Positions 250 through 20,400 of a DNA stretch of 32,991 nt are shown piece after piece. Within the stretch, counting starts at the first letter, position 1. Each line of letters opens with the position of its first letter. The position numbers and the translations under genes are program-made. This DNA comes from a virus, in the IMG/VR virus record IMGVR_UViG_3300011189_000026, positions 1 to 32,991 of that record, one strand, 5' to 3'. The notes beneath the pieces are model-generated. The model was not told the origin of the DNA, made no database searches, and saw only the letters and a list, made by a program, of their open reading frames with translations.

Positions 250-804
250 TCAACGCAACCCTCCAGAGGTCAGCCCCGCATCAACCACCATCTCGCAAGT
301 GAGGTCGCAATAGCGAAAGTCCCACCCCGAGAACACCGGGCTTGGGGGGTCCACGACCGTGGCGTACCAGAAGCCAGAGCAGTGATCTAGGGCAAGGCTC
401 GAAACTCCCACGGTGGTGTTCGAGGTGCCGGTGAAGCGCACGTTGCGGATCGAGAGCTTCCCGTCCAGGGACAGGACCGTGGGGTTCTGGAAGTCGATCC
501 TCGTGTCGGTTGAGGGGTTCGCGGCATAGATGTACACATCGACCCCCGCCGCCGCCAAGTTGGAGCCGTTCCAATCATGGTCGCTGCCTTCGGCCAACCG
601 GATGACGATGGGGTCATCGGATGCGGATGTGCCCGCTGCAAGAGCCGCGTCGATGGTCTGATACTGCCGCTTGGTGGCGTCAGCCCCGAGCCCTGGATCC
701 ACGAAGTATTCGTTGGGGGCTGTGTAGGTGTCCGGGCCACCACCACCGCCGCCTGGGCCGACGTTGGCTTTGCCATCGAGGTTGGATGAGCAGGTCGCCA
801 TCAT
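250..804 (-). CDS. Short tail-fibre/tailspike-like protein with pectate-lyase-type beta-helix
   Basis: A 184-residue protein, or 183 if the second ATG (801) is used. A Gly-rich linker at about residues 16-23 is followed by a segment (VDPGLGADATKRQYQTIDAA) typical of the entry into right-handed parallel beta-helix domains, then short alternating strands (LSLDGKLSIRNVRFTGTSN) that fit stacked helix rungs. Known proteins with this look are phage tailspikes and fibres that bind surface sugars; no catalytic residues can be identified here. ATGA overlap (801-804) with the upstream fibre gene implies translational coupling. AGGAG lies 3 bases before the first ATG and 6 before the second, so the second may be preferred. 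It is short for a tailspike and ends abruptly, so it may be an accessory fibre tip or a truncated gene. Confidence 0.6.
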   Translation of the reverse strand: MMATCSSNLDGKANVGPGGGGGGPDTYTAPNEYFVDPGLGADATKRQYQTIDAALAAGTSASDDPIVIRLAEGSDHDWNGSNLAAAGVDVYIYAANPSTDTRIDFQNPTVLSLDGKLSIRNVRFTGTSNTTVGVSSLALDHCSGFWYATVVDPPSPVFSGWDFRYCDLTCEMVVDAGLTSGGLR

Positions 805-3800
805 TGACTCCTGAAGATGATCTGGACATAGATGCCAGAGGCCACGAGATCACCGGTGTCCGAGACAAGCTGGAACTGAACGCGGGTGCCCTCCGAGATT
901 TGAAGGTCCGGACCAGTCCCAGTCAGGCCCAAGGTGGTTTGGGTGGCCGCCGTGAGACTCGTCATGTCGAACGTGGGAGCCCCCAACAAGTTGTTCGCAC
1001 CGTCGATGTCTTCCACAGCCAGCGTGTAGGCACCTGCGGTTGTAGGCGTCACCTGTCCGTAGATCTTGATGGCCAGGATTTGCATGTCGTACGGAGCGAA
1101 GAAGACATGGTTGATGGTGTCGGAGGCTGACACCGTCATCTCAAACTGCGAGTCGTCGTTCGAGCCGCCGATGTAGATGATCTGGGCGTAGAGACCTGAC
1201 GCCACCAGATCAGCATTGTCCGAAACGAACTGGAGCTGGACCGGTGATCCCTCGGTGAGCTGAAGGTTCGCCGGAATACCGGTGAGGGCAGCAGACACCA
1301 ACGTAGTGGGTGGGAGACCCGTCAGGTCGAACGTAGCCGCACCCAACAGATTGTTCGAGCTGCTGACCTCCTCGACGGCCAACGTGTAGACACCTGCGGT
1401 CGTGGGCGTCACCTCCCCATAGACCTTGATGTCGGTGACGGTACAGTCGTAGGGCGGGAAGAACAACGTGTTGATCGTGTTCGCCGGGAACACCGTCACT
1501 TCAAGCTGGTGATCATCGGGTGGGGCACCCGAGACCGTCACGGTGGCCTCGGTGCCGAACAACATGCTGAAGTAGATGCCGTCGCCATCGAACAACAGAT
1601 CATCAGAGATGAATTCGGCTGACCACTCGTCCCCAGCGCTGAAGGTCAGGTCAGCTGCTGTGCCCGTCAACGAGAGCGATGTGACCGCACCCATGACGAG
1701 GGTGTTCATGTCGTACGAGGCTCCGACCAGCATTGTCTGGCCAGTCGTCTCGTTCGTGAAGATCGCCGTGTAGTTGCCCTGGGTGTTGAGGACATCCATG
1801 CGCACAGAGATGTCCGACACCACTGCGCCGATCGGAACCCAGCCCTCGAACCTGTAGGTGTTGTTCGGCAACACCGGGACGTTTTTGATCAGGAACGGCG
1901 ACCCACCGCCTCCAGACCCTGTACCGATGTCCGCCCAAGGACCCGCGTCCACCGAAGTCTGGAAGCTCGTGGTCGCTTGGTTGTAGCGAAGCCGGCCGGT
2001 GTTCGAGACGGAGACCGGGGCTGCCGGGCTGTCCTCGAAGATCATCGCGTCATTCGAGCTGATGACCGGGTTGGTGCCCCCAGAGATGTTGCCCGCGACA
2101 AGGACAGTGGCCCAGTCCTCGGTCACAGGGCCGCCGCCAGTCGCCGTGTTGAACACCACGGAGACGTAGATGGCGTCCCCGTCGAAGTTCAGATCATCCG
2201 ACACCAGCTCTACGGTCCACTTGTCCTGCGCAGAGAAGGTCAGATCTGGGAGAGACCCAGAGAGCGGCACCGCTGTCACAGCACCCGCCACGATGCTGTT
2301 CATGTCGAACGTCGCGGCGCTCAACACCGTGTTGCCGGTCGCCTCGTTGGTGACGGCCAGGGTGTAGTTGCCTTGGGTGTTCACCGTCTGCATGTAGACG
2401 CGAACGAAGATCAACTCAGCCGCAACCGGGGCCCAACCCCGATACCGCACGGTGTCGTTGGGCACGCGCGGCATGTTCTTGTGGTAGACGACCGGAGCGA
2501 CAGCGGCAACGGCTGCGATCTCGTCGATGGCGTCCTGTACGTTCTCCGCCATCAGTCCAGTGATGGTGTTGTCGTAGAAGTGCGACTTCGACTGAGCCAG
2601 TGCGTTGAGGTCCGGATCAGTGCCGGGGAACACCAATGCGTTGTACTCGACGCCACTGGTGTTCAACGTGCTCGTGCCCGCCACGCCCGTCGTGTCGAAG
2701 TTGATGTTGCCCACAACCGAGGTGAAGCGGAGCGTCGCATTGATGTTGCCGACCAGAGCGCCTGCACTCGGGTGGATCCAAACGGCGCTGCCCAAAGCTC
2801 CCGAAGGAACATCAAACGTGGAGCGGCTCACTTCGAGTTCTTGCGCCGAGCTGCGTAGGCCCCATCCGGAGGCGTTCCGGCCCACGAATTGACACGCATC
2901 GAAGATGGCTGATTGGGTGACCACCAGACCTGGGTTCAGATCAACAGGGCTGGGTGCGTTGAGGTCGGTGCGAAGGAAGCTCGAACTGGTCGACACCCCC
3001 GACTGGAGGAACGCTACCCTGTCTGCTGGGTTCGAGCTGTCGGTGAGGAGCACACTGTCTTCGACACGGAGCGAGCCACCTTGAAGATCAACTGCGGCAC
3101 CTTGAGTGGGGGAGACACCGAGCTGCTCCACGCGCACCCGGTGCATGCGCAGGCTGCCGACGCCAGTCTTCCGCAAGACGGCGTTGGTGCCTACGGTCGT
3201 GCTCTCCAGGTTCAAGCCCGAGACCAAGGCCCTGCCAGCGGGAATGGCAGCCTCGTGCCCTGTCGCTGTGGCGGTACGGAGGATCACCGCATCCGAACTG
3301 CGACCGTCGATGTTGCCCGGCCACCCAACGACATGGATGTAGGGCTCGAAAGTCACATCCTCGACGTAGACGCCAGGACGCACAGCCACGACCCACTGCT
3401 CTGAATCGGAGGCTCCCGCAAAGCTTGCCGCCGTGATGGCCGCTTGTACGGTGGAGTGGTCGGCGTAGTTGCTCGTGCCATCGTTGGCATCGACATAGAG
3501 CAGCCTCCCGCTCGCCACCAAGGGCTTCACGAAGTCCTTCAGAGTGACGAGGTTGAAGTTCTGCTCGTTCGCCCAACCCTCGACATCGACATCCACAGGG
3601 ATGATGCCTGAGTCGTCGCGACGCTCTCCCGCCGCCACCAGACAGAGGGACCCAAACGCCGTCTTGGACCTGAGCCGGACGAACTGGGTGTCCTCAGTGA
3701 CCTCTCCAGCGTCCACCGTCAGCTTGATCAGGTAGGGACCTTCGACATCGGCAATGAACATGCCGGGCGAGGCTGCCGTCGCAGAACCGCTGAATGTGGC

Positions 3801-3956
3801 CGCAGAGGTCTCCGGCGCGAACGCGATGACCCAGTTGTAGGTCGAGTGCGCATCCACTGCTGTGAGGAGCACAATATCGCCCTCAACGAGGTCGTCTCGC
3901 GACACCCCGTCAAGGGGTGTGACCCCATTTCGGAAACTCCGGATGATTGCCGCCAT
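801..3956 (-). CDS. Large tail fibre: Ig-like N-terminus, beta-helix, four tandem beta modules
   Basis: About 1051 residues from ATG 3956; an in-frame TTG at 3959 is less likely because AGGAG would touch it. Residues ~1-140 form a beta-sandwich-like region ending in AAGERRDDSGIIPVDVDVEG and a WANEQNFN stretch, a conserved block I know from fibre proteins of large phages. Residues ~150-430 read as a parallel beta-helix (repeated short strands, AAITAAS, VAVRPGVYVEDVTF). A linker with ITGLMAENVQDAIDEIAAV follows, a motif common in phage fibres. Residues ~490-1050 contain four homologous ~85-residue modules. The product is probably a receptor-binding virion fibre. It is the first gene after the plus-strand cassette, preceded by an 18-base element shared with another minus-strand gene start, and is coupled to the small fibre gene by ATGA. 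Confidence 0.75.
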   Translation of the reverse strand: MAAIIRSFRNGVTPLDGVSRDDLVEGDIVLLTAVDAHSTYNWVIAFAPETSAATFSGSATAASPGMFIADVEGPYLIKLTVDAGEVTEDTQFVRLRSKTAFGSLCLVAAGERRDDSGIIPVDVDVEGWANEQNFNLVTLKDFVKPLVASGRLLYVDANDGTSNYADHSTVQAAITAASFAGASDSEQWVVAVRPGVYVEDVTFEPYIHVVGWPGNIDGRSSDAVILRTATATGHEAAIPAGRALVSGLNLESTTVGTNAVLRKTGVGSLRMHRVRVEQLGVSPTQGAAVDLQGGSLRVEDSVLLTDSSNPADRVAFLQSGVSTSSSFLRTDLNAPSPVDLNPGLVVTQSAIFDACQFVGRNASGWGLRSSAQELEVSRSTFDVPSGALGSAVWIHPSAGALVGNINATLRFTSVVGNINFDTTGVAGTSTLNTSGVEYNALVFPGTDPDLNALAQSKSHFYDNTITGLMAENVQDAIDEIAAVAAVAPVVYHKNMPRVPNDTVRYRGWAPVAAELIFVRVYMQTVNTQGNYTLAVTNEATGNTVLSAATFDMNSIVAGAVTAVPLSGSLPDLTFSAQDKWTVELVSDDLNFDGDAIYVSVVFNTATGGGPVTEDWATVLVAGNISGGTNPVISSNDAMIFEDSPAAPVSVSNTGRLRYNQATTSFQTSVDAGPWADIGTGSGGGGSPFLIKNVPVLPNNTYRFEGWVPIGAVVSDISVRMDVLNTQGNYTAIFTNETTGQTMLVGASYDMNTLVMGAVTSLSLTGTAADLTFSAGDEWSAEFISDDLLFDGDGIYFSMLFGTEATVTVSGAPPDDHQLEVTVFPANTINTLFFPPYDCTVTDIKVYGEVTPTTAGVYTLAVEEVSSSNNLLGAATFDLTGLPPTTLVSAALTGIPANLQLTEGSPVQLQFVSDNADLVASGLYAQIIYIGGSNDDSQFEMTVSASDTINHVFFAPYDMQILAIKIYGQVTPTTAGAYTLAVEDIDGANNLLGAPTFDMTSLTAATQTTLGLTGTGPDLQISEGTRVQFQLVSDTGDLVASGIYVQIIFRSQ
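812..2475 (-). repeat. Four tandem diverged protein modules in the tail fibre (2+2)
   Basis: Within the large fibre gene, four modules share the pattern [I/V]xVY...GxYTLAV...LxxAxFDM...LxGxxxDLxxxxGxxxxxxxVSDxxxxxxxxIYxxxxF. Approximate spans are 2475-2150, 1890-1560, 1485-1170 and 1125-812. The first two resemble each other (NTQGNYT, DLTFSA, DDLxFDGD) and the last two resemble each other (TPTTAG, NNLLGA, DLVASGxY). This suggests an ancestral duplication followed by a second round or by recent conversion within each pair. Confidence 0.75.
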
Positions 3957-3990
3957 CAACTCCTCACAGGGAAGGCTCTACCTCTGGCGG

Positions 3991-4050: not shown

Positions 4051-4677
4051 ATGACACCAGATGAACAACTCGACTTCCTACACGACCAGAAGGTCGCCTC
4101 CTGCACTCGATGTCCTCTCCATGAGCATCGCACCCATGCTGTGCTTGGAGAGGGCTCTGCTGAAGCAGCTGTGTTCTTCGTTGGGGAGGGTCCGGGTGCA
4201 CAAGAAGACCAGCTGGGGCGTCCCTTTGTGGGTCGTGCGGGCGTCTATCTGAACAACATCCTCAAGCATGCCCGGCTCACTCGCGAAGAGGTCTACATCA
4301 CCAACCTCGTGAAGTGCCACCCCCCAGGCAACCGTGATCCCGAGGCGGGGGAGATCGCCACCTGCTCATCCTTCCTGCACGCTCAAGTCGCTGTCGTGAA
4401 ACCTGACCTCATCGTTGCCCTTGGACCTCTGGCGGGCAACGCGATGACAGATCAAAGTCCGGCACTTTCAGAAGAAGTGCTCCAGAGACGCCTCTGGACA
4501 TACCGAAACCCCAGCACCGGCTTCGAGGCCCCCGTCGTGTGCATACACCACCCTGCCCACTTGATGCGGCTGCGAAACGATCCCGAAGCGCTGCGTCCGA
4601 TCTACCGAGACACCGTAGCCAGTCTTCGCAGGGCCATCGCCCAAACAAAGAAACTTGACCTGGACTTCGACTTTTAG
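4051..4677 (+). CDS. Family 4 (4Fe-4S) uracil-DNA glycosylase
   Basis: A 208-residue protein of the usual length for family 4 uracil-DNA glycosylases, which remove uracil from DNA as the first step of base excision repair. Four cysteines fit the 4Fe-4S ligands: C18 and C21 (CTRC), C89 (KCHPP) and C105. The family's uracil-pocket motif is present at ~45-64 (GEGPGAQEDQLGRPFVGRAG), then TNLVKC at 84-89, and the C-terminal DNA-intercalation motif HHPAHLMR at 166-173. It is the first gene of the plus-strand cassette. No strong Shine-Dalgarno precedes the ATG. In a phage it could repair deaminated genomic cytosines or exclude uracil during replication. The same family includes a DNA-polymerase-fused phage form, but here it stands alone. 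Recognition is firm. Confidence 0.93.
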   Translation: MTPDEQLDFLHDQKVASCTRCPLHEHRTHAVLGEGSAEAAVFFVGEGPGAQEDQLGRPFVGRAGVYLNNILKHARLTREEVYITNLVKCHPPGNRDPEAGEIATCSSFLHAQVAVVKPDLIVALGPLAGNAMTDQSPALSEEVLQRRLWTYRNPSTGFEAPVVCIHHPAHLMRLRNDPEALRPIYRDTVASLRRAIAQTKKLDLDFDF

Positions 4678-4708
4678 GGTTTGGTTTGATCCGGGTGCGC
4701 GTAGTACA

Positions 4709-4726
4709 GGTGTAAGGAGATACACC
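4709..4726 (+). promoter_or_regulatory. Perfect hairpin presenting the Shine-Dalgarno in its loop
   Basis: GGTGTA (4709-4714) and TACACC (4721-4726) are perfect reverse complements flanking the six-base loop AGGAGA, which is the ribosome binding site of the gene starting one base later at 4728. A loop-exposed Shine-Dalgarno would stay accessible and might protect the leader; alternatively a protein could bind the hairpin and block translation. The sequence is certain; the function is inferred. Confidence 0.6.
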
Positions 4727-4727
4727 G

Positions 4728-4997
4728 ATGCTGTTCACTCTCGGAAAAATTGTTGGCACCCCCGACGCGCTGGCCCTTCTTGAAAGCCACGGGGTCGAGC
4801 CGAAAACCCTTCTTGACCGCCACGTCAGCGGCGATTGGGGCGATGTCGACGACCACGACCATGCGGTCAACGACCAAGCCGTCAAGACCGAGGGGCGCAT
4901 CCTGTCGGTCTACGACATGAGCAACGACCAGAAGGTCTGGATCATCACCGAGTGGGACCGCAGCGCGACCACCCTGCTCCTTCCTAGCAACTACTGA
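4728..4997 (+). CDS. Small conserved 'plasmid-related' family protein
   Basis: An 89-residue protein that I recognise as a member of a widespread but functionally uncharacterised family often labelled 'plasmid related protein', found on proteobacterial plasmids, integrative elements and phages. Hallmarks seen here are GTPDALALLE near the N terminus, a central RHVSGDWGDVD followed by a DxxNDQAV segment, RILSVYDM, and the C-terminal WIITEWDRSATTLLLP. The start is supported by a strong AAGGAGA seven bases upstream, sitting in a hairpin loop. It follows the glycosylase gene by 50 bases and precedes an unknown gene. Its presence points to exchange with mobile elements of Gram-negative hosts. Function is not known and none is proposed. 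Confidence 0.8.
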   Translation: MLFTLGKIVGTPDALALLESHGVEPKTLLDRHVSGDWGDVDDHDHAVNDQAVKTEGRILSVYDMSNDQKVWIITEWDRSATTLLLPSNY

Positions 4998-5009
4998 TCT
5001 CTGGAGTTC

Positions 5010-5522
5010 ATGATGCCTGTCCTCTGCAAAGAAGCTGCCGCCAAGACCAACGATGCCGAAGTGCTCGCCGTGTTCGAGAACGCCGGCCTCACCGCCGCCA
5101 ACTTCGTGCTCATCGAGCACCCTTCCCACCCCGAATACAACCGGGTGGTTGTGATGGGAGCCGAAGCCTACGAGCGCTACCGCTCCGACCGTGCCGCCCT
5201 TCGTGCGGACCAGGACCGCAAGGGCGCTGAGATCAAAGAGAGGGGCGGCTTCATGACCCCCCGTCAGCGCGACGACATGCTCTGCTCCATGCAGCGTCGC
5301 CACTTCAGCTCCGGACTCAGGGAGTTCCGCCTCTCCACCAACATCTACGGCTGGTGCGTCGAGAAGACCACCAACCTCGGGGGTGGAGCTGCCGCCCAAA
5401 CCCGGCGCGGCCTCAACAAGGCAGAGGCCATCGCCTGGGGCGTCCAGTGGGCCAAGGCTGACCCCAACAACCGCTACTTCACCGTCTACACGTCCTACCT
5501 CCCCGAAGGATTCGAGGTCTAG
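5010..5522 (+). CDS. Unknown protein of the plus-strand cassette
   Basis: A 170-residue soluble protein that I do not recognise. The N-terminal half is mixed, with a charged helical stretch around residues 55-85 rich in Arg, Asp and Lys; the C-terminal part contains aromatic strands (NIYGWCVEKT, RYFTVYTSYLP). GGAG lies 3 bases before the first ATG and 6 before the second (5013), so translation may begin at the second Met. The stop is followed two bases later by the next ATG, so it is probably co-transcribed with its neighbours from 4728 onward. No membrane segment or signal peptide is visible. Confidence 0.7.
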   Translation: MMPVLCKEAAAKTNDAEVLAVFENAGLTAANFVLIEHPSHPEYNRVVVMGAEAYERYRSDRAALRADQDRKGAEIKERGGFMTPRQRDDMLCSMQRRHFSSGLREFRLSTNIYGWCVEKTTNLGGGAAAQTRRGLNKAEAIAWGVQWAKADPNNRYFTVYTSYLPEGFEV

Positions 5523-5524
5523 CC

Positions 5525-5782
5525 ATGCTGATCGGACTCCCCTCTGCCCACGACTTCTCCATTCAGTTCGACGAGACTCGTGGCGAGATCGTCGAGCTGG
5601 GACTCGACAACGTCCGAAGAGGTCTAGGCAACTACATCCCCGACATCCAAGGTGTCCGGATCGTGCTCCACACCTTGGGCGAGTTTGGGGATGAGGACAC
5701 CGAAGTCCGACTCGAACTCGATGAAGCTGCCGCACTCGCAGAAGCACTGCTTGAACTCGTCCGCCAGCAAAGGTCCGCATGA
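5525..5782 (+). CDS. Small acidic unknown protein
   Basis: An 85-residue acidic protein with no recognised family. It reads as a short beta-rich N-terminal part (FSIQFDETRGEIVEL, VRIVLHTLGEF) followed by an Ala/Leu/Glu-rich C-terminal helix (residues ~65-82). It starts two bases after the previous stop, and its own TGA overlaps the next ATG as ATGA (5779-5782), so it is translated as part of a tightly packed cassette. The size and acidic helix would suit a regulator or inhibitor, but nothing in the sequence shows that. Confidence 0.65.
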   Translation: MLIGLPSAHDFSIQFDETRGEIVELGLDNVRRGLGNYIPDIQGVRIVLHTLGEFGDEDTEVRLELDEAAALAEALLELVRQQRSA

Positions 5783-6315
5783 CTACCTCGAACGAACAGC
5801 TCGACACGCACCTACGTCAGCTTGTGGTCGCCCGATACGCCATGAGCCCGTCGGTGCCGGACGACTCCAAGTACCTGTCCGTCTCGGACTACGTTCTCGA
5901 CCAAGGGGAATTCTTCCGATCTGAAGCGCTGGCAGACCACGAGCTGCGCATTCTGGAGGATGCCATCGCCGCCGCGAACCAGAGGGACGACTGGGGCTTC
6001 GAGCCCCGGCAATGCTTCGCCAACGCGGCACGTCTGGTGCTCTTCGACGAGTCCGGAGAGCTGCGCTACTGTGAAGGCTTCGCCTTGGGCGCAGTCATGC
6101 CAGTGGCCCATGCCTGGGCAGCCATCAACGGCAAGGTCGTCGACCTCACCTGGACACTGAAGGAGGGGGAGGGCCCCGTGGGCTTCCGGAAGAACACCCC
6201 TTCCATGATCGGATTGGGGGTTTGGTTCCAGAGACCCGCGCGTATAAAGGGCTGGAATTCCTCGGGCACTACCTTCGAGGACGAGTTCTCGAAACAGAAA
6301 CCTACCTGTCCCTGA
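5779..6315 (+). CDS. Transglutaminase/papain-like fold protein, frame-disrupted near the C terminus
   Basis: The 178-residue reading contains a Cys-His-Asp arrangement typical of transglutaminase/papain-like enzymes: C79 in QCFANAARLV, H111 in PVAHAWAAI and D122 in GKVVDLTW, with an intervening YCEGFALG. Such proteins may be peptidases, amidases or acyltransferases; the substrate cannot be told from sequence. After about residue 147 the frame turns into unlikely sequence, while the -1 frame continues convincingly to 6416. A single extra G in the GGGGG at 6216-6220 would join them into one 212-residue protein whose TGA overlaps the next ATG. The stop as read, at 6315, instead leaves a 100-base gap. 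I regard the restored version as the true gene. It starts with an ATGA overlap with the preceding gene. Confidence 0.7.
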   Translation: MTTSNEQLDTHLRQLVVARYAMSPSVPDDSKYLSVSDYVLDQGEFFRSEALADHELRILEDAIAAANQRDDWGFEPRQCFANAARLVLFDESGELRYCEGFALGAVMPVAHAWAAINGKVVDLTWTLKEGEGPVGFRKNTPSMIGLGVWFQRPARIKGWNSSGTTFEDEFSKQKPTCP

Positions 6316-6416
6316 TCGACGACATGGCCGGCAACTGGCCGCTCCTCCAAGAAGATCGCCTCAAGCCCCCTCCCCACTACGCGGAACTCCGCGCCTCCTT
6401 CCAAGGACCCTCCTGA
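6222..6416 (+). pseudogene. C-terminal fragment of the transglutaminase-like gene, out of frame
   Basis: The 64-residue reading (TTG at 6222, no ribosome binding site) is best seen as the real C terminus of the gene starting at 5779, displaced by a missing base in the G5 tract at 6216-6220. It contains TRAYKGLEFLGHYLRGRVLE followed by ETYLSLIDD and WPLLQED. This has normal globular composition, unlike the overlapping upstream frame. It ends TGATG with the following gene, the same coupling geometry seen elsewhere in the window. Confidence 0.6.
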
Positions 6417-6643
6417 TGAACAACCTCCGCACCCCGCTCGCCAAGATGGACACCGACACCCTGGGCTTCCTCTGCATCGCCGCGCTCCTGCTTGTCGCAG
6501 GCATCGGCTGGTACTTCGGCTACGTTCAGCCCCGCGAAGAGTTTCTGCTAGCCGTCACGGACTGCACCAACCAAGCCCCTCCGAACACGGACCCCCAGGC
6601 CGCGTGGAGCCAATGCGTCACCGTTGTGCAAGCACAGCTGTGA
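6416..6643 (+). CDS. Small one-pass membrane protein
   Basis: A 75-residue protein with one strong hydrophobic segment at residues ~16-37, preceded by Arg5 and Lys10 and followed by a polar C-terminal domain with two cysteines (C50 and C67). By the positive-inside rule the N terminus would be cytoplasmic and the C terminus periplasmic, where the cysteines could pair. The start overlaps the preceding stop (TGATG at 6414-6418). Small membrane proteins in phage cassettes can be holins, spanin parts or superinfection-exclusion factors, but no lysis enzyme is adjacent and the sequence does not decide between these. Confidence 0.65.
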   Translation: MNNLRTPLAKMDTDTLGFLCIAALLLVAGIGWYFGYVQPREEFLLAVTDCTNQAPPNTDPQAAWSQCVTVVQAQL

Positions 6644-6653
6644 ACCTCCCAAC

Positions 6654-7076
6654 ATGGATGCCCGCATGAAGATGCACGAGATCAAAGCGAGCTGGCGCTT
6701 GCCCACCCCAACGGTCCAGAACCGGTGGAACCTTGGCATCGAGCCGCCCACAGTGGTCATCGTAGAAGGTGCCCGTCTGTCCGACCCCTTCGCCGAAGTG
6801 ATGCGGTTCGCACTGACGGGCGACGGGACGTTCCTCCTCGGAGACGCACACACCGTCCTACACCGGGACATCGGCCTCGCGGGCTCCGCCTGTGGGTACG
6901 GACAAGTCCTGACCATCGGTGTGGTCCTCCGCCCAGAAGGAAGCTGGGTTTGCATGACCCAGCCCTTCGACACGGTCCCCAAGACGCTCTTCCCCCGCCT
7001 GTCCACATGGATGGAGCTGCTCGACGGAGAAGTGGTGGAACTGCGGAACGGCTACAGCGAAGACGTGCTGTTCTAG
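6654..7076 (+). CDS. Unknown protein, last gene of the plus-strand cassette
   Basis: About 140 residues from ATG 6654; ATGs at 6666 and 6672 are also in frame and none has a clear Shine-Dalgarno, so the start is uncertain. I do not recognise the family. It appears to be a mixed alpha/beta soluble protein, with beta-type stretches (PTVVIVEGARL, VLTIGVVLRPEG) and an acidic C terminus. A HTVLH motif is present but lacks the spacing and acidic partner of a JAB/JAMM metalloprotease. Its TAG (7074-7076) and the TAG of the convergent ubiquitin-like gene share the four bases CTAG, leaving no room for a terminator. Confidence 0.6.
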   Translation: MDARMKMHEIKASWRLPTPTVQNRWNLGIEPPTVVIVEGARLSDPFAEVMRFALTGDGTFLLGDAHTVLHRDIGLAGSACGYGQVLTIGVVLRPEGSWVCMTQPFDTVPKTLFPRLSTWMELLDGEVVELRNGYSEDVLF

Positions 7077-7294
7077 CTCGATTCGAGGGTGACCTTGATC
7101 ACCATTCCCTCGACGAGGGGCAACATGTCTCCAGGTAGAAGGGTGCCTCCTACAGGATCCGACCGGCGGAACAGATACGTGATGGAGGGCCGGCAGGAGG
7201 GCCCTACAGTCACCTGGGCCAGCTCCAAAAGACGGTCATAGCTGATGAGCGCCCGATCGACCTCGACCCACTCGTCGTTCAAACTGATCCGCAT
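7073..7294 (-). CDS. Ubiquitin-like beta-grasp protein in the baseplate operon
   Basis: A 73-residue protein whose pattern matches the single-domain ubiquitin-like family of bacteria labelled 'multiubiquitin', as I remember it: a first strand with an Asn (RISLN, 2-6), a second strand (WVEVD, 9-13), a helix opened by ISYDRLLELA (17-26), a third strand ending in Tyr (PSITY, 36-40), then GGTLLPGD (49-56) and EGMVIKVT (62-69). In bacteria such proteins occur beside E1/E2/JAB-type genes. No such enzymes are seen here, and the C terminus (LESS) lacks a terminal Gly-Gly. GAGGGA precedes the ATG, and the gene begins six bases after the gpI-position gene stops, so it is transcribed with the baseplate. 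It could be structural, a decoy for ubiquitin-like anti-phage defence, or a conjugated modifier. Confidence 0.6.
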   Translation of the reverse strand: MRISLNDEWVEVDRALISYDRLLELAQVTVGPSCRPSITYLFRRSDPVGGTLLPGDMLPLVEGMVIKVTLESS

Positions 7295-7300
7295 GTTCCC

Positions 7301-8638
7301 TCACAGGTAGAACTGGTTGGAAACGTCTTCGGCGACTCGTGTTTTGTACTCCCGAACACCCAGACGATCGACTGTTACCGTGTACGTCTGGCCAGTGGCG
7401 ACCTCGATCATCCTTGGCTGAACGCGGAGAATAGACGGCGCGACGCGCACCTCAGTTCCCGAGCCTGGATTCTGGGTGAGAGGTCCCCCATTTGGACCGA
7501 GCACGTCTTCGAGACGGTAGCTCCCCGCATTCGACCCTTCTACGAAGGTGAGCACTTCCCCCTCAGCAGCGAGAGACCAGTCCTGGGAAGCGTCTGTGAG
7601 CACACCACCGCTCGACACGGTCGCTGAACCTGCCAGCCCCGAGGGAGTGGTCGTGTACGCCCGTGCCGTGGTGTCTACAGACACGGGAAACTGAAGGACC
7701 TCGACCACTCGGTAGAGCCCGGCGTTGCTGCCTGTGTCGATCGTGACGGTCGCACCAACAGGGATGGACTCGAAGCTACGAGCTGGATCAGAGAGCAAGT
7801 AGCGCCCCGACAACGTGCTGCCTGTAGCCCCGTTGATCTCCTTCGCGCCGTAGCAGAACTTCCGAAGGTCGTCGTAGTAGTACGCCTCCAGCTCCCACAC
7901 CATCGCATCGTCGGCGGCGTCATCAAAGATGTCCCCAAACGCATCGCGGAAGAGGTGGCTGTACTCGTACAGGGTGTGCGCAGGCTTCAGCGCTTCGAGG
8001 ACCAACCGGACGTTGTTCTGGGTGACGAAGGGGTCGCCCGGAAAAGAGGTCCCTCCGTTTTGCTCGACGAAGATCTCGAAGATGAACTGGTCGTCGATGG
8101 TGTAGGCAGAAGCAGGATCACGAGAGGCAAGGTAGCGCTCGATGATCGACACTTCGAGACCCGAGATGGCCTCAATGCCCTCTTGAACGGCATCCTTCTT
8201 GGCTCCAAGTAGGAGCAGCCGGACCATGGTCTGAAGGAAGCACCGGTAGGTCGTGTCGCCGTCGATGACCGGAAGCCCCTCTTCCTCCGAGTCGGGAAAC
8301 ACCAGGGACGCGATGATCGGAAACAAGAACTCTGACCGGGTGAAGTCGTGGTCGAAGTCCAAGGTGATCTGTTGGGCCGTGAGCTGGATCTGAGCAAGCG
8401 CCTCCGCGATGGCTTGGAACTGGAGCGTGTAGAACGGGCCGTTGACCTGGGAGACGTAGTTGTCCGGCAACACCGCCATGAACGTGACCATGATCTTGTT
8501 CACGAGCGTCTGGAACTGCGTGTTGAAGTCCTGCCCTTGTAGAGGGAAGGGGGCAGGGTTTTGGCTGACGGAGTCCGGGTAGGGACTGACGATCTCGTCA
8601 GGCGCGTTTGGATCGTCGCTGTTGTTGCTTCCCGCCAC
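7301..8638 (-). CDS. Baseplate protein in the gpI position
   Basis: A 445-residue protein directly after the J-like gene, the place of tail protein I in P2-type baseplates. The N-terminal ~25 residues are Pro/Asp/Asn-rich; residues ~30-200 are largely helical (QFQAIAEALAQIQLTAQQI, RCFLQTMVRLLLLGAKK), followed by LVLEALKPAHTLYEYSHLF, a segment typical of this position in large phages. The C-terminal third is beta-rich and contains two related units, each with GSNAGxYR followed by a VL-containing strand (near residues 301 and 369), indicating a small internal duplication. Start is GTG 8638 with GAGGA nine bases upstream, overlapping nothing but only two bases from the J stop. Probable role: wedge component linking J to the fibres. 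Assignment rests mainly on synteny. Confidence 0.6.
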   Translation of the reverse strand: MAGSNNSDDPNAPDEIVSPYPDSVSQNPAPFPLQGQDFNTQFQTLVNKIMVTFMAVLPDNYVSQVNGPFYTLQFQAIAEALAQIQLTAQQITLDFDHDFTRSEFLFPIIASLVFPDSEEEGLPVIDGDTTYRCFLQTMVRLLLLGAKKDAVQEGIEAISGLEVSIIERYLASRDPASAYTIDDQFIFEIFVEQNGGTSFPGDPFVTQNNVRLVLEALKPAHTLYEYSHLFRDAFGDIFDDAADDAMVWELEAYYYDDLRKFCYGAKEINGATGSTLSGRYLLSDPARSFESIPVGATVTIDTGSNAGLYRVVEVLQFPVSVDTTARAYTTTPSGLAGSATVSSGGVLTDASQDWSLAAEGEVLTFVEGSNAGSYRLEDVLGPNGGPLTQNPGSGTEVRVAPSILRVQPRMIEVATGQTYTVTVDRLGVREYKTRVAEDVSNQFYL

Positions 8639-8640
8639 GG

Positions 8641-11600
8641 CTACCGGTCCTCGTCGTAGGTGAAGTCCAGGGTGCCGATGACGAGGTACTCGGCATCACT
8701 TGGGCTCAGGTTCTTGGCGGCCGTCTCATCCGCAGAGATGTACGTGGCGGCGTAGTCGCGATTCGTCGGGGAGTCGGACACGTCAGTCGTCACAAGGATA
8801 CGGTTTGCAGTCAGGTTCTGACGTTCCGCCTCGCGCTCGGCAGCCGTGTCGAAGCCAGCTGCTGTAAGCGTGGCGTCGTCGGTGAGGCCGTTGATGACCA
8901 GCCCCTCAGAGCCGATGATGAAGGAGAGCCCTGTCGTGAGGCCCACCGTCGAGATCGGCAGCGCACGCAGCTCCAAAGTGGAGTCGTCCTCGAACACGCT
9001 CCGGAACTCGTTGGGAGGACCGCCGTTGTTGTCCGTCGCCGCCTTGAGCTGATCTTCGATCAACCATGTCGAGACCGTCTGGGTCGAGAGGGCCGACAAG
9101 TAGGTGGAGTCACCCTGTTGCCCAGTGACCAACACCTCACGGACCACCTGACTGCCAGCCTGACGGACCATCTTGGTGAGAGGGGTCACCACGTAGGAGA
9201 CACCAAAAGTCTTGTCGATGGCGGAGATGATGTCGCTCTTGCGCAGAGGTACGCCAAGGCGGATGGCTGCGAACAGGTTGGTCAGATTGGTTCTGACGGC
9301 CGTGTCCACCGTGGACTGCACCGAGCCTCGGTTGAGTACGATGGTGGCGGCAATGTCCACGGGGACATCAACACCATCCTTCGCAAGCACATCCGCCGTC
9401 AGGTGCTTCATCTCATTCAGCTCGTCCTGGGCGGTGGAGACCACGAGGTTGGTTGTGTACTGCACCACGAAGTTCTCATCGTGCTCGTAGTCCACCAACA
9501 CAGACTCGCCTGAGGAGATGGCCGTGCCTGCAACCCTCTGGATGGTTGTGGGAGTGGTCTCATCCCCTTGGGAGATGGTGTAGTCGGACACACCACTGGG
9601 ATCGTTGGGGCCTCGGTAGGTGACCGAGCGGTCCGAGTTGAGCACCACGATGCTCAAGAAGTTGACCCCCAGGTTGTCGAGCGACTCCGCGAACTCACCG
9701 ATCATGACGTGCGGCTCGTTCGAGATGGGGATGGACTCTCCTGATGGAACCGTCACACCTGTAGCTGCGTTCGTCACCGAAGTGATCTGGACGTAGTCAC
9801 CGGCCAAGGACGAGCGACCTTGACCCAGAGGGGACGAGGGGTGGAAGAGCAGGAAGGCCGCCGCAGGGAGGGTTCCAGACACCGACCCCGTAACTGCCGT
9901 GATCTCGCGCACCGGCTGACGAGGGAGCACGAAGCGGTTGGTAGACCGGCGGCGGTAGTCGCCCAACACCACGTCGGTCAGAGACACCGCCGGCTGGAGC
10001 AAGTTCGTGTCGAGCTTGATGGTGTTGAACCCCGTGATCAACACACCTGTGAGGTCGAAGTCCTCGCCGGTGGTGGCGTTGCGGAAAGCGAACCCCGCCG
10101 TCGCACTGTCCAGCATCTGAACGATGGGGTTGCCCTCGGATAGAAGGTTGTCCACCGCGCGGAACTCCAGATCAACGGGATCGGAGATCAACTCGAACTG
10201 GATGTCCTTGGCGACATCGAAGCTGAACGCAAAGGTGTCGGTGACCGTGGCGATGCTGTTGCCCTGGATCCACACATCAACCTTGCCGCCTCGATGCTGC
10301 TTGTCTGCCGCATCCCAGTCTCTCTGCATCAGAGGGTCGAGAGCACCCACTACATTGCCCTGAATGACCCCTGGGACGGCCGCGACCGTTTGGAGGTACC
10401 CACGCGCTGTTCCGCTGTCGACGCCCGCCACGGCATTCTGTGCGCGCTCTGCGAGCTGCCGGTTGGTCTCGGTCTGAGTCCCCCCGAACATGGCGGACTC
10501 ATTGGTGACGGACAGCCCAGGAATAGAGCTGACGATGCGGCGAACCTGACCCACACCCACGTTGCCGGACTCGCCAGAGTTGACGGCCTGCACAGGGATG
10601 CGGACGAGGAACCGACCTGTTGTGGGGTCCCGGAAGGACGCGATGTTGTTCAGCGGAAGTTCTGAAGCAGACGTGGTCCTGAACTGCACTGAGCCAGAGG
10701 CTATCAAGGTGCCAAGCGGGATTGGGATCGACCGAGTGGGAAGCACGGTCGTGAAGAACGTGACCTCGCCCCGAGAGAACCTGCCTGGGGTCCGGAAGAT
10801 GTGGAAGTTGCTGGCGAGCTGCTCGTACGCCCGGTCCACGAGGGCCTGCGTCTCCGCATCCCTGCCAAACCCGAAAGCGCGCTTCAGGCCAGTCTTGTAG
10901 ACCGAGAGGCTGACCGCAACGCTGTTGCCAGTGTTCTGGGGGTCATCGAGGGAGTTGAGCGAAGAGAAGCTCTGGGCCCGGTGCATGAAGTCGACGATGA
11001 ACCGGATGCGCTGGGCTTCGTTGGAGAAGGGGTCAATCACCGTGTCCCGAAGCACCGACCCGGCTTCCATCTTCACCGTAGGGCTCGACCGGAAGACCGA
11101 GGCCATGTAGTCCTTGACGATCTGCTGCCGCGACAGGACGGGGAAGTTTCCGACGTTGGTCGACACCGTCAGAGGAGAGCCCACGACCTCGATCGAGAAG
11201 CTCGACTCGGTCTCCACGAGGTTGACACTGTCGTAGTAGATCGCCGACACGACGTAGTAGAGCGGCTCAGTGGCGGCGATCGAAGCGAAGGCACCGATCG
11301 AGACGGTGGCGGGGGTGGAGTTCGGGCCTCCTGCACGGTCATGGCGGAAGGAATATTGGTCGAACTGCCTCACCTGCTTGACCACGAGGGAAGTCGTGAC
11401 CTGCGTGACGAACTCTGGAACCTCGATGCGCTCCACGAAGTCTTCTTGGACCTCAGTGTCGTCGATGCCCACCTGAGTCTGACTGATCTTCACGAAAAGA
11501 GGGTCGGCTGCGGGATCACCGAAGCCGTTCGTAGCGATGTTCACGCTCTGCTCAATTTGGGCGAGGTCAGCGTCCTCGGTGACGATTGAGCTGTCGATGA

Positions 11601-12102
11601 CCGTCTCGATGTTGATCCGCCTGTAGCCAGTGATGCCACCCCCCGCGAATTGGCTCGCGTAGAAGTTGAACCCCACCAGGGTTGGATCGTCGATGTCCGT
11701 CACCTTGATGTCGACCTGATTGTCCAGGCGCTCGACTTCGATCTCCGTTGGCGGCGCTGCCACCAGCGTGAAGTCCCCATCTCGGATGACACGTACCTCG
11801 ATGCGGGCAGGGGTTGACACCGCGCCGGAGCTGGAGACGGAGCGAACAAAGATCTCATTCTTGCCCGGCTGCAAGTCGAGCCCGTCCGGGAACGCCGTCG
11901 AGTTGGGGAGCGTCCAAGACGTGCCCTCAAAGGCGATCAGATCCGGCTCATTGGTGAACGCACCTCCCCGAATGCTGACCTGCATGTCTACAGTGTCTGG
12001 ATCGGTGGTGCCCGAGAAGAACCGGGATGTGAGCGTCGTCGAGAAGACGAACTCCACCCGAGAGACACCATCGGGACCTACAACCTTTGGAGGGTTCGCC
12101 AT
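8641..12102 (-). CDS. Baseplate wedge J-like protein (gp6/gpJ family)
   Basis: An 1153-residue protein with clear baseplate J features: a helical segment ESxSVLRD-like (MEAGSVLRDTVIDPFSNEAQ, ~350), then PIPLGTLIASGSVQFRTTSA (~460), the hinge with VNSGESGNVGVGQVR, SIPGLSVTNESAMFGGTQTE with a following NRQLAERAQ (~525-555), and a C-terminal VDVPVDIAATIVLN (~915) and LRKSDIISAIDKTFGVSYVV (~957). Known members form the dodecameric wedge ring of contractile tails. The usual P2 protein is about 300 residues and T4 gp6 about 660; the excess here is an N-terminal ~330 residues of Ig/FN3-like beta sequence plus insertions between 580 and 880. It sits between W-like and gpI-position genes, the canonical order. 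Confidence 0.85.
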   Translation of the reverse strand: MANPPKVVGPDGVSRVEFVFSTTLTSRFFSGTTDPDTVDMQVSIRGGAFTNEPDLIAFEGTSWTLPNSTAFPDGLDLQPGKNEIFVRSVSSSGAVSTPARIEVRVIRDGDFTLVAAPPTEIEVERLDNQVDIKVTDIDDPTLVGFNFYASQFAGGGITGYRRINIETVIDSSIVTEDADLAQIEQSVNIATNGFGDPAADPLFVKISQTQVGIDDTEVQEDFVERIEVPEFVTQVTTSLVVKQVRQFDQYSFRHDRAGGPNSTPATVSIGAFASIAATEPLYYVVSAIYYDSVNLVETESSFSIEVVGSPLTVSTNVGNFPVLSRQQIVKDYMASVFRSSPTVKMEAGSVLRDTVIDPFSNEAQRIRFIVDFMHRAQSFSSLNSLDDPQNTGNSVAVSLSVYKTGLKRAFGFGRDAETQALVDRAYEQLASNFHIFRTPGRFSRGEVTFFTTVLPTRSIPIPLGTLIASGSVQFRTTSASELPLNNIASFRDPTTGRFLVRIPVQAVNSGESGNVGVGQVRRIVSSIPGLSVTNESAMFGGTQTETNRQLAERAQNAVAGVDSGTARGYLQTVAAVPGVIQGNVVGALDPLMQRDWDAADKQHRGGKVDVWIQGNSIATVTDTFAFSFDVAKDIQFELISDPVDLEFRAVDNLLSEGNPIVQMLDSATAGFAFRNATTGEDFDLTGVLITGFNTIKLDTNLLQPAVSLTDVVLGDYRRRSTNRFVLPRQPVREITAVTGSVSGTLPAAAFLLFHPSSPLGQGRSSLAGDYVQITSVTNAATGVTVPSGESIPISNEPHVMIGEFAESLDNLGVNFLSIVVLNSDRSVTYRGPNDPSGVSDYTISQGDETTPTTIQRVAGTAISSGESVLVDYEHDENFVVQYTTNLVVSTAQDELNEMKHLTADVLAKDGVDVPVDIAATIVLNRGSVQSTVDTAVRTNLTNLFAAIRLGVPLRKSDIISAIDKTFGVSYVVTPLTKMVRQAGSQVVREVLVTGQQGDSTYLSALSTQTVSTWLIEDQLKAATDNNGGPPNEFRSVFEDDSTLELRALPISTVGLTTGLSFIIGSEGLVINGLTDDATLTAAGFDTAAEREAERQNLTANRILVTTDVSDSPTNRDYAATYISADETAAKNLSPSDAEYLVIGTLDFTYDEDR

Positions 12103-12108
12103 GACCTA

Positions 12109-13248
12109 CTATCCGAGGAAACGACGGGCTTGAGCCGTCGTGAGACCAGTCGTGTCCAGGCCGAGTGACAACCCATTTGATCCCGCGAGCGCGATGGCCC
12201 CCGGCACGGTGAACACGATGTTGAGGCTGATGGGTTCGCCCGAGCCGTTTGACACCACCACATCCACAAGGAACGCAGAAGGGTCTTGCTCGTGCGGAGA
12301 GACATTGACCGAGAGTACCGAGACCAAACGCTCTTTGGCGGTGACTCGTTGAAACCGGGCCTGCTGGGTCTGGAGCTGCTGCATGTTGCGCAGCCCGAGA
12401 CGTACATCTTCGTTGATCAGCGTCGTGACCAAGCCAATGGCTTTCGCGCCGATCCGAGACTTCAATGAGGTGCCGTAGAACGGATGGAAGGGGTTGGACC
12501 CCTTCCCTGTCAGCAAGATCTTCAACGCTGCCTGATACAGCAGGTTCTCGTTCTCGATGATCAGCGGGTCGCCCCGGATGTCGAAGCGGTAGTCGTTCTC
12601 CACGAACGTCGCGCCGCAACGCAGACATCGTTCAACGGGAGCGGTGTAGGCGACACGGAAGTTGGCCGCCTGCTTCACCGAAGAGACGAAGCGGGGGTAG
12701 CGGTTGGTGATCGTGCCCTCTCGCTTCTCCAGCACCCAGGGAGGGAACACGGTTGCGCCGCGAGCACCCGATTGAAACGTGAACCCCAGCGCTTCGGCAG
12801 CTGACCCCGACACCTTGATGCGGGAGGACTGGCCCACCGTAGCCACATCGCTGAAGACAATGTGTCCCTTGATGTTCTCCACCAAGATGCTGTTCGTCAG
12901 AGGCTGGAACAGCTCAACAACCGTCTTGGCGGGAACCGCTCTCGACGATGGAAGCGTCACCGTCACCGTCTCTTCGCTGCTCCGAACGGTCAGCTCCAAC
13001 CCTTTGCAGTCGACGAGATCAAAAGGCCCGCTCACCGAGCCTGTCACCTGCGCGACCGACAGGAGCCCCGAGCTAGGGATGTAGAAGGAGTCCTCAGGAT
13101 CAAGCACCAGATCATCGGAAGACCGCACTCGCCTCGACCCGCTCGCCGACACAACTTGGATGCGTACGGACCCACTCGCCGCCACCGGCTGTCGGGTAGG
13201 CAGAGTTCGACGGTCCGCACCCAAGATGACCGACTCCTCGATCGTCAT
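12109..13248 (-). CDS. gp25/W-like baseplate wedge protein with long N-terminal extension
   Basis: 379 residues from ATG 13248. The C-terminal part resembles the gp25/W wedge family: LLTGKGSNPFHPFYGTSLKS (~250-270), a helical AIGLVTTLINEDVRLGLRNM with an acidic-Arg pair reminiscent of the family's EPR motif, and a final beta hairpin. The N-terminal ~200 residues are beta-rich and unlike T4 gp25, which is about 130 residues. A CxxC pair (CLRCG, ~210) precedes the core and could bind metal with partners not seen. The frame is open upstream: a CTG at 13287 would add SIEYQLAFPCPH, overlap the previous stop as CTGA and stand six bases after GAGGAG, whereas ATG 13248 has no good ribosome binding site. 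It lies seven bases before the J gene. Confidence 0.65.
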   Translation of the reverse strand: MTIEESVILGADRRTLPTRQPVAASGSVRIQVVSASGSRRVRSSDDLVLDPEDSFYIPSSGLLSVAQVTGSVSGPFDLVDCKGLELTVRSSEETVTVTLPSSRAVPAKTVVELFQPLTNSILVENIKGHIVFSDVATVGQSSRIKVSGSAAEALGFTFQSGARGATVFPPWVLEKREGTITNRYPRFVSSVKQAANFRVAYTAPVERCLRCGATFVENDYRFDIRGDPLIIENENLLYQAALKILLTGKGSNPFHPFYGTSLKSRIGAKAIGLVTTLINEDVRLGLRNMQQLQTQQARFQRVTAKERLVSVLSVNVSPHEQDPSAFLVDVVVSNGSGEPISLNIVFTVPGAIALAGSNGLSLGLDTTGLTTAQARRFLG

Positions 13249-17419: not shown

Positions 17420-20400
17420 TTAGGCGTCACCGAGGCCCTCCTGAAGACGCAGCAGGTCCTCTTGCTCTTGCAGAAGGCGGGGCAGCTCGGCGTCGAACCG
17501 AGCGATGGCCGGGAGCGTGCCGTTGATCTTGTCGGAGCGGAAGCGGATCCAGGCGAAGCGAAGACCACGCAGCCTGTCTGTGCGGTCCAGCACGTCATCC
17601 ACACGGTCAGGCAACACTGGGCGGCCCGAACCTGGACTGAGACCCTCTCCCAAAGCATCCTCCTCGAAAGACGAGTATGGGGGGCCGGTCGTGATGTTGG
17701 GAGGGCGAGTGGTGTCGAGCCGCGTGTCGAGGATCCAGAAGCGACGGTCGAGAACGGACAGGCAGTCCGAGGTGTTCAAGAAGGGCGCAACATCAACCTC
17801 ACCCGAAAGCGTGGTCAACGCCTCGTTGCTCGGCACACCGAGACCGTCTGTCGCGCTGGAGGGTAGGTCCGTGATGTGGTCGTCACGCTGGAACACGAAG
17901 TAGTCGCCCTGCTTCGTCCCGTCGGATGGACCGGTGATCTCCTCAATCCAAGAGAGGATGCGTTCACGGTGCATCAACACGAGATCGATGGTCTCGTCGC
18001 TGAAGATGCCAGAGGGCCGGATGATCCGGTAGCTGAAAGGCTCGATGCTCTTGAACGTGCCGTCTTGGTACGAGTTGGACCCGTCTGCAACCTGGGTGAC
18101 TCTCAGGTCCATCTGACCTTCGGGCCCACCAGGACCTGTGGACACCGTCGGATAGACCGCAAATTCCTGACCACTCGCGCCGAACACTACGTTCGTCGAG
18201 CTGTCAGGACCACTGAACGTGGACTCCCCGTTCAGCTCAAGACCCGCTGCGTCAGCTGCGGGGCCCAGCGCTGTGATTCGGTAGTAGCCTCGGTTGTCGT
18301 CCAGATCAGAAACAGGCCGGGCAACATGCTCGGCTCGGGCCGGAACGCCAGTGTCTCCGAAGGGCCGCACACCATCCTCTGGCGGACTGGTCTGGCCCGT
18401 TGGACCGGACAGCTCACCCGCAGGATCGATGATGACGATGTCGCCCACCTGAGCGCCAATCGAGGTCAAGTTCACGCCATTGTCGGAGAGTACGTTGACC
18501 GTGCCCGCTCGACCCCCCGTGTCTGCCACAGGGTTGGCCGTTGAGCTGAACACCTTGGTCTCGGTGATCAAGCCCAACAACTCTTCGTTGCTCTGTTCAT
18601 GGGGAACAGGTGCTGTGCGAAGGTAGATGTAGAGCTTGTCGCCAACCGAAACCGGTTGGGTGAAGCCGGGCTTGGTGAGCAAGATGTCGGTGGCGTTCAG
18701 AAGCAGGCCAACACGGGCACGATCGACCTCGTTTCCGCTCGCATCCAGCAAGAGGACATCGTCTCCTGCGTTGATGTTCACATCCTCGCTGTTGAGATCT
18801 CCAAGTTGAGTCGCCGTGCCGAAAGTGGCGGTGTCCAACTCAAGGAGCCGGGTGGCGGGGGTGTAGCCGCCTACCTCCGCGCGACGAGTTTCGTAGGCGA
18901 AGCGCAAGGGTTCGAGGTTGTTGCCAATGCCGTCGAGAAGCTCCCTGAAACGACGGATCCTGCGAACCTGGAAGGTGACCCGCTCTCCGCTCGCCGTGTA
19001 GAGGGCCTCGATGGTGGTGCCGGCGTCAGGGACATCGCCAGTCGTGTTGATGACCAGCTCACGCGTGAAGTAGTCGACCGTCGAGCTGCCCGGCGTTCCG
19101 GAGCCTGCGAAGCCACCCGCGCCATCGTCCGTCATGGCCACAGTCGCGGCACCGCTCGTCCATGAGATCGTGAGCGAGCCTGGGGTGATGGGGTTCTCTG
19201 GGAGGTCGAGGGTCCCTTCACCCAGCACTGCACCCGAAGTCTTCCAGATGGCAATGAGACCGTCCGTCTCGGTGCCGTCCTCCACCTCCTCTTGGTTCGG
19301 GGACTGGTAGAACGTGCTCGTGTCACGCATACCGACTTCGTTTGCTGAGAGGCCCGTAGAGGAGTCCACGACCTTCACACCACCCGTGGCAAGGTCGAGA
19401 CACGTGAGCGGCCAGGAAGGCTCAAGGAAGACACCCGCGAGGGCTTGGTAGCCCGCGACCCCGGACGGATCTGCCGTGCCGTTGGCAAGCACCAAACTGG
19501 ACGCCGTGAACTTGTCTCCGGGCAGCACGCAGGCCACATCCGAGGTGTCGCCCGTCCCGTCTGTGTGGACGTTGTCCCACACCGTCGCTGTGATCGAGCT
19601 GATGTCCATGTAGTCAGCCACGTTGTCGTAGATGATCTCGGTGGGGTCCGGAAGGAATGTCGTGCTGGGCGTCTTCGCAGCAACCACCACATCGACAGTG
19701 TCCGCCCCGTTGGCGAGGGTGCTGCCGCTTGAGTAGGAGAACGTTTGGGCGCGAGCGCCACTCGTCACATCCTGGGGACTGTAGAAGCTCGGGTTGCTGA
19801 GGGTCAGCTCGCGGAGACCACCGGCAGTCGTCTCCCCATTGCCGAAGGACACAGTGTTGTTGTCTGGGAGCGGGGCAGCAAAGCCTCCCACGGGGAGGTA
19901 GGCGAAGCCCGAGACTCTCAACCCGGCGAGCGCTGCTGTGTCGAAGTCGTTGTTCGTGACGAGCGTGCCGTCAGCCGTCAGACCTGACCCACCAGTGATT
20001 GTGAACACACCCGCAGGTGTGAAGCTCGTGTAGGCCACACTGATGACCGTCGTTGGGTCCGAGATGTTGGGGATGACATAGAGCCTTCCCGAAGGAGCCC
20101 ACGCGAACCCGCCTGGACCCGGACCATCCACGCTGCTGATGGTGATCTCACGGGGAGCACCTCCCCCAACGTTCGACGACACCACAACTGGGAACTCGAT
20201 CTGAACCCACCCAGCAGAGCTTGGAGCAGTGGCCACGGGAGACGACGTGTTCGCGCCTTGAGTGGACCCAGCTTCGGGCACCGAGTGCCGCACAAGATAC
20301 GTGCCCTGCTTGACGCCGCCAGAGCCTGAAGCAGCTGCTGTGACATAAGCCACGTCGCCCGCTTCGACATTGGTGAGAGCGCCTGTGCCGGCTGTGACAT

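Follow-up and report, generated by a model that had tools for sequence, protein, structure and literature searches.

Ubiquitin-like (Ubl) pathways and phage tails are known to meet in the bacterial Bil system (BilABCD), whose known targets are phage tail proteins. BilA has a pair of Ubl domains, and processing leaves it with a reactive C-terminal glycine (PMC11354881). The central tail fibre is where Bil acts while tails assemble, and anti-phage tagging of tails is established for this system (PMC12948488). Bub operons, many of which carry immune-type regulators, have not been demonstrated to protect against phage (PMC13373217). Single-domain bacterial Ubls of 85-93 amino acids, ending in serine without glycine, exist within the Bub type. 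Phages also encode a Ubl domain among their own tail genes, namely in tail assembly protein I (TAPI) of lambda and T1 (PMC1779556).

Here we analyse a 32,991-base virus contig (hereafter the window), a fragment of the genome of a large uncultured bacterial virus that likewise encodes a Ubl among tail genes. The gene occupies 7073..7294 on the minus strand, with its ATG at 7294 and its stop codon ending at 7073, and specifies a stand-alone protein of 73 amino acids, MRISLNDEWVEVDRALISYDRLLELAQVTVGPSCRPSITYLFRRSDPVGGTLLPGDMLPLVEGMVIKVTLESS. The original prediction had proposed this frame without assigning it a strand; the frame is real, and the six motifs quoted from it, RISLN to EGMVIKVT, all occur in the product in the order given. 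Its start codon had also been placed 6 bp behind a baseplate gene, and the stop of that gene, g445 (7301-8638, minus), indeed falls exactly 6 bp before the ATG. Across the start region (7292..7303, minus strand), the g445 stop TGA is followed by the 6-bp gap at 7295-7300 and the ATG at 7294-7292. Because this junction reads TGA-GGGAAC-ATG, a GAGGG Shine-Dalgarno-like site overlaps the g445 stop codon; as read from the DNA, translation of the Ubl may be coupled to that of g445. The Ubl gene also matches its neighbour in codon-position composition, with a GC3 of 0.757 against 0.758 for g445. Rfam, tRNA and repeat scans return nothing relevant at the Ubl junction.

The product aligns over nearly its whole length with the Pfam family Multi_ubiq (PF14452), residues 1-70 matching profile positions 1-67 of 69 at 20.0 bits (E 7.7e-4). 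Despite the full-length match this score lies below the curated gathering cut-off of 24.5 bits, and we therefore call the protein a divergent relative of PF14452 rather than a certified member. An AlphaFold single-sequence model has a mean pLDDT of 84.6 and a predicted strand-strand-helix-strand-strand-strand order, which is that of the beta-grasp fold. In a Foldseek search of the PDB, the top two matches are both chains of 9cd2, the multi-ubiquitin of E. coli ZDHYS365 (E 4.6e-5 with TMq 0.82, and E 1.3e-4), and the third is far weaker (E 0.11). The beta-grasp fold that had been expected is thus borne out. VIA re-alignment superimposes the model on residues 145-219 of 9cd2 with a Z of 11.4 over 73 residues at 25% identity; the rows that follow are also multi-ubiquitins, other bacterial members scoring 7.6-8.8 and ubiquitin about 7. 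Since 9cd2 scores so far above the others, the model singles out the multi-ubiquitin family beyond the general fold. The best structural match thereby falls in the third domain of a 222-residue bacterial chain, whereas the phage protein is a single domain of 73 residues. BLASTP of the phage Ubl against that third domain alone finds no match, so the link to 9cd2 rests on structure and profiles. A BFVD search with the model gives no significant fold match.

Relatives of the phage protein were sought among bacteria with a bait, a Multi_ubiq-like consensus that scores 72.7 bits against the Pfam model and was used for no other purpose. This search recovers 31 plasmid records, most of them annotated as multiubiquitin beside a ThiF adenylyltransferase. 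Nine of the 31 records were examined; most also show DUF6527, and their Ubls have one to three domains. Operons of the order multiubiquitin - ThiF - DUF6527 are found on plasmids of Rhizobium, Runella, Rhodococcus, Streptomyces and other hosts. The phage Ubl aligns with the last domain of the nine bacterial Ubls at 21-33% identity, its terminal ESS lying under their final residues. A profile built only from the last domains of these nine plasmid-borne Ubls scores the phage protein at 15.8 bits, while 20,000 shuffles reach at most 7.3, and among the 611 stop-to-stop frames of at least 30 codons in the window the Ubl is the only significant match. The corresponding inner-domain profile gives -1.6 bits. 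In a tree, the phage Ubl falls on the C-terminal-domain side (95/92), but on a long branch. With the caution that such a branch imposes, the phage Ubl appears related to the C-terminal, not the inner, Ubl domain of Bub-type proteins. No close relatives were found in 84,980 genomes, in plasmids or in named phages, and in IMG/VR only one sister record, L002, contains one.

Profile, fold and the independent C-terminal-domain profile support the initial reading of a stand-alone multiubiquitin-type Ubl behind a baseplate gene. They strongly support the view that the gene product is one beta-grasp domain with homology to the last Ubl domain of bacterial multiubiquitin proteins, and identity as a Ubl is well supported. 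The sub-threshold Pfam score (20.0 bits against 24.5) is what a small beta protein unrelated to Ubls might give by chance resemblance, but the independent profile, the shuffles, the fold and the placement in the tree all agree on a Ubl; we disfavour this reading and consider it the least probable of those weighed here.

These relatives bear on two further points of the original prediction. It had connected the protein with Bil and had remarked on the missing Gly-Gly. The Ubl-type identity behind the first point holds, but the nearest relatives found belong to Bub-type operons. Gly-Gly is indeed absent from the phage Ubl, but this is nothing special: all nine bacterial Ubls end in serine without glycine (VSRTGQS, VTATDKS, VESANRS, VYRTSRS etc.), as does 9cd2 (VTQTDKS), so its absence is normal for the Bub-type branch.

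The phage protein shares with the Bub-type C-terminal domains (PF14452) both the fold and the motif order ISY..LLELA / SITY / GTLLPGD / EGMV.KVT. It differs from them in being encoded in a baseplate operon, in having no adjoining ThiF or DUF6527 gene, in its shortened or altered tail and in its long branch. Profile searches of the window, itself a genome fragment, find neither ThiF nor Prok-JAB, which agrees with the earlier statement that no E1 or JAB gene is visible there. The Bub operon arrangement is likewise not seen: the Ubl is flanked by a wedge gene and a convergent ORF, and the window contains no ThiF. Relative to Bil, which is also a Ubl pathway, the phage protein has one domain rather than two and no glycine, and with neither ThiF nor Prok-JAB in the window the locus does not have the makeup of a Bil system, in which BilA is accompanied by E1, E2 and JAB genes. 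TAPI has a conserved glycine, a Gly-rich linker, a further C-terminal domain and a JAB/NlpC neighbour, all of which the phage Ubl lacks, and no sequence match to TAPI was found. A ThiS/MoaD sulphur carrier was also considered and rejected, since the C-terminal Gly-Gly is absent (the protein ends in LESS or V) and no ThiS/MoaD profile matches.

The genes upstream of the Ubl identify the operon, with strong support, as the contractile-tail baseplate of a large myovirus with the Ubl at its 3' end. On the minus strand, a gp25/sheath-initiator-like baseplate protein of 379 amino acids (12109..13248; weak matches to PHROG 975 and 2669, and no significant match to PF10934) precedes a Baseplate_J/wedge subunit of 1153 amino acids (8641..12102; PF04865 E 2.7e-18, PHROG 6 E 5e-30). 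Next, and directly upstream of the Ubl, comes g445 (7301..8638, minus; 445 amino acids), which has no family match in Pfam or PHROG. We assign it as a baseplate wedge/triplex-like subunit from a 29-row alignment and a fold match: its model, built with 29 relatives and of intermediate confidence (pLDDT 74.5, pTM 0.43), resembles wedge/triplex subunits of phiCD508 (9gb2_M, E 5.9e-6) and diffocin (8v3w). Separately, a C-terminal beta domain of g445 (residues 265-426) matches both the lambda tail tip and the eukaryotic E1 Uba1 (residues 179-260) with Z about 7, a likeness that probably reflects a common barrel. A single ORF of 3662 amino acids (17420-28408) lies within the tail module. A Baseplate_J search of genomes found no host.

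Downstream, the Ubl gene shares its stop region with a convergent ORF on the plus strand (6624..7076; 150 amino acids), the two stop codons overlapping; this ORF is the last gene of a plus-strand cassette at 4051-7076. At the end of this cassette, 4051-4677 encodes a family 4 uracil-DNA glycosylase, a gene that recurs at the same place in the related contig L054; the remaining cassette genes have no match in related loci. On the far side of the cassette lies a fibre/spike-like protein of 1052 amino acids (801..3959, minus), syntenic in L054, whose putative fibre role is suggested by its position and repeats.

The baseplate genes are widely shared, the Baseplate_J gene being common to 52 viral contigs with 8 contigs reached via g445, and the Ubl is carried by only two near-identical records, the window and L002, a 6.7-kb fragment. 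In L054, g445 is 59% identical and is followed by a convergent cassette ending in uracil-DNA glycosylase and then by a fibre-like gene; there the g445 stop (11284) meets the stop of the convergent gene (11281) with no Ubl between them. The g445 stop of L057 likewise abuts a convergent gene without a Ubl. The isolated jumbo phage Tunturi_5 of Tunturiibacter (309 kb) has the same layout, with a gap of 3 bp between gp240 and gp239 and no Ubl. A Ubl profile matches no ORF in any of the related viral loci, a result that also speaks against the Ubl having separated from the wedge or fibre protein of a relative. Across 50 related records Pfam Multi_ubiq yields no match above cut-off; since a good many of the records are fragments, a Ubl could lie elsewhere in those genomes. 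One weak match (L060; G022, record 332561-332677; 16.2 bits, below cut-off) was seen outside the baseplate operon of a 435-kb relative. Because relatives with the same operon lack the Ubl, the baseplate does not need it, and there is strong support for regarding the gene as accessory and not as a conserved component of the baseplate.

These comparisons bear on a role in tail structure or assembly, in which a recruited Ubl fold decorates the baseplate, or acts as an assembly aid outside the virion, by binding the upstream wedge protein. The Ubl closes an operon of gp25, Baseplate_J and wedge genes, starting 6 bp after the last of these and with an overlapping Shine-Dalgarno-like site, and there are precedents in TAPI, whose Ubl-containing protein is absent from the mature tail (PMC1779556), and in the beta-grasp domains of Mu-like phage tail proteins (PMC1949818). 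The Ubl is nevertheless missing from relatives whose wedge proteins are 45-59% identical to g445 and whose operon is otherwise alike, and its nearest sequence relatives are Ubls of conjugation pathways, with no tail-family match in Pfam or PHROG. We regard such a role as quite possible, though short of probable.

The two carriers of the gene differ at its 3' end. The window and L002 are 99.9% identical over 6.3 kb, and their homology stops at window position 7088, in the last codons of the Ubl. The variable end (7073..7087, minus) gives a 73-residue form ending ...KVTLESS* in the window and a 70-residue form ending ...KVTV* in L002, so that the core is preserved in both almost to the end of the last strand and the difference is confined to the tail. 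Five substitutions separate the shared block; the one within the Ubl gene, the sole difference in its homologous part, is synonymous. Compared with the Bub C-terminal pattern V-x-x-[ST/A]-x-x-Ser, the VTLESS of the window keeps the serine but is one residue shorter, and L002 has VTV. Beyond the junction, L002 has no match among the sequences compared. Elsewhere in the shared region, L002 has about 97 extra bases (L002:150-245, against window position about 13352) in the intergenic space that precedes the gp25-like gene.

Since the 3' ends differ between records that are otherwise 99.9% identical, an intact conjugation-type tail is seemingly not needed. Unless the L002 end is an assembly quirk, the tail, which in conjugated Ubls is the part fed into the enzymes, is dispensable, and a binding role is therefore mildly favoured over a conjugated one. 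The conjugated alternative is that the Ubl is attached to the phage's own tail proteins, as a shield or regulator, by E1/E2 of the host or by enzymes that the phage encodes beyond the window. The window form does keep a Ser-ending VTLESS, which lines up with the tails of Bub Ubls that likewise end in Ser (VTATDKS), and Multi_ubiq, ThiF and JAB genes are all present in another huge phage, LR756511, but the L002 form stops earlier (VTV*) and has no such tail, and neither ThiF nor Prok-JAB occurs in the window, a genome fragment. We consider self-modification of this kind unlikely. The break in homology within the last Ubl codons, with only two carrier records, could mark a functionless passenger gene that was captured recently and sits at the operon's variable 3' end. 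Its open frame, operon-like composition, synonymous-only change, coupled start and confident predicted fold speak against this, and we rate it slightly more unlikely still.

Multi_ubiq domains are also encoded by other huge phages, but there they form part of longer fusion proteins and are not located in a baseplate operon. LR756511 (595 kb) encodes a 148-residue protein (LR756511.1 L064:14776-15222) with a C-terminal Multi_ubiq domain that scores 24.6 bits, just above cut-off; this protein contains a cysteine, and no viral relatives of its Ubl were found. ThiF and JAB genes lie 200 kb from it, in a separate cluster of ThiF-like, 214-residue and Prok-JAB genes (LR756511.1 L076:4617-6542), and these LR756511 genes may be parts of a phage-borne Ubl pathway. 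LR745208 (485 kb) has a Baseplate_J with 43% identity to that of the window and encodes, in the region LR745208.1 L086:5114-6673, a 239-residue protein with a C-terminal Multi_ubiq domain (30.4 bits) that probably sits behind a coiled coil. The C-terminal-type profile does not match this domain; its gene adjoins an R2K-clade ATP-grasp gene and a YpsA/DprA-like (SLOG) gene, and a ThiF search of the LR745208 genome gives no match. In Tunturi_5, a Prok-JAB match above the curated cut-off was noted (L087, record 223905-224210).

We tentatively favour, slightly over a tail part, a reading in which the Ubl is a non-covalent competitor or mimic of the host Ubl at tail assembly. Placement of the Ubl for translation together with the baseplate proteins is strongly supported; the steps that follow are proposed. 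The Ubl, probably of host origin, would be made with the baseplate proteins at the time of tail assembly and would occupy host E1/ThiF, E2, a DUF6527-type peptidase or multi-ubiquitin filaments, and with these host enzymes occupied, assembling tail proteins would escape modification. With its C-terminal tail altered and dispensable, it would be poorly conjugated, yet the surfaces through which the fold binds would remain intact. The idea of a decoy, a bacterial conjugation Ubl copied with an altered tail, which keeps the host from tagging phage tail proteins, is a fair guess that still falls short of likely. The competitor reading fits because of the accessory status of the gene, its kinship to conjugation Ubls, its late placement and its loose C-terminal tail. 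The late placement would suit a Bil-type target, since Bil acts during assembly (PMC12948488), and the multiubiquitin-type domains of LR756511 and LR745208 count in favour of competition as well. Against it, the closest relatives are Bub Ubls, which have not been demonstrated to stop phage (PMC13373217); the position in a structural operon fits a virion or assembly role equally; and there are only two carrier records, one of them the 6.7-kb L002.

Phage tail fibres are tagged with Ubls by Bil, and the related Bub operons have no settled purpose; the presence of a Bub-type Ubl in a phage tail operon points to contact between Ubl pathways and phage tails. This small and concrete protein raises the questions of whether it binds an E1, E2 or peptidase, whether it blocks tagging and whether it is incorporated into the tail. 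A decoy, if that is what it is, would be a counter-defence that copies the tag itself rather than inhibiting or cleaving. The finding suggests that the virus took over a tag from its host, whether to jam tagging by the host or to add a part to its tail.
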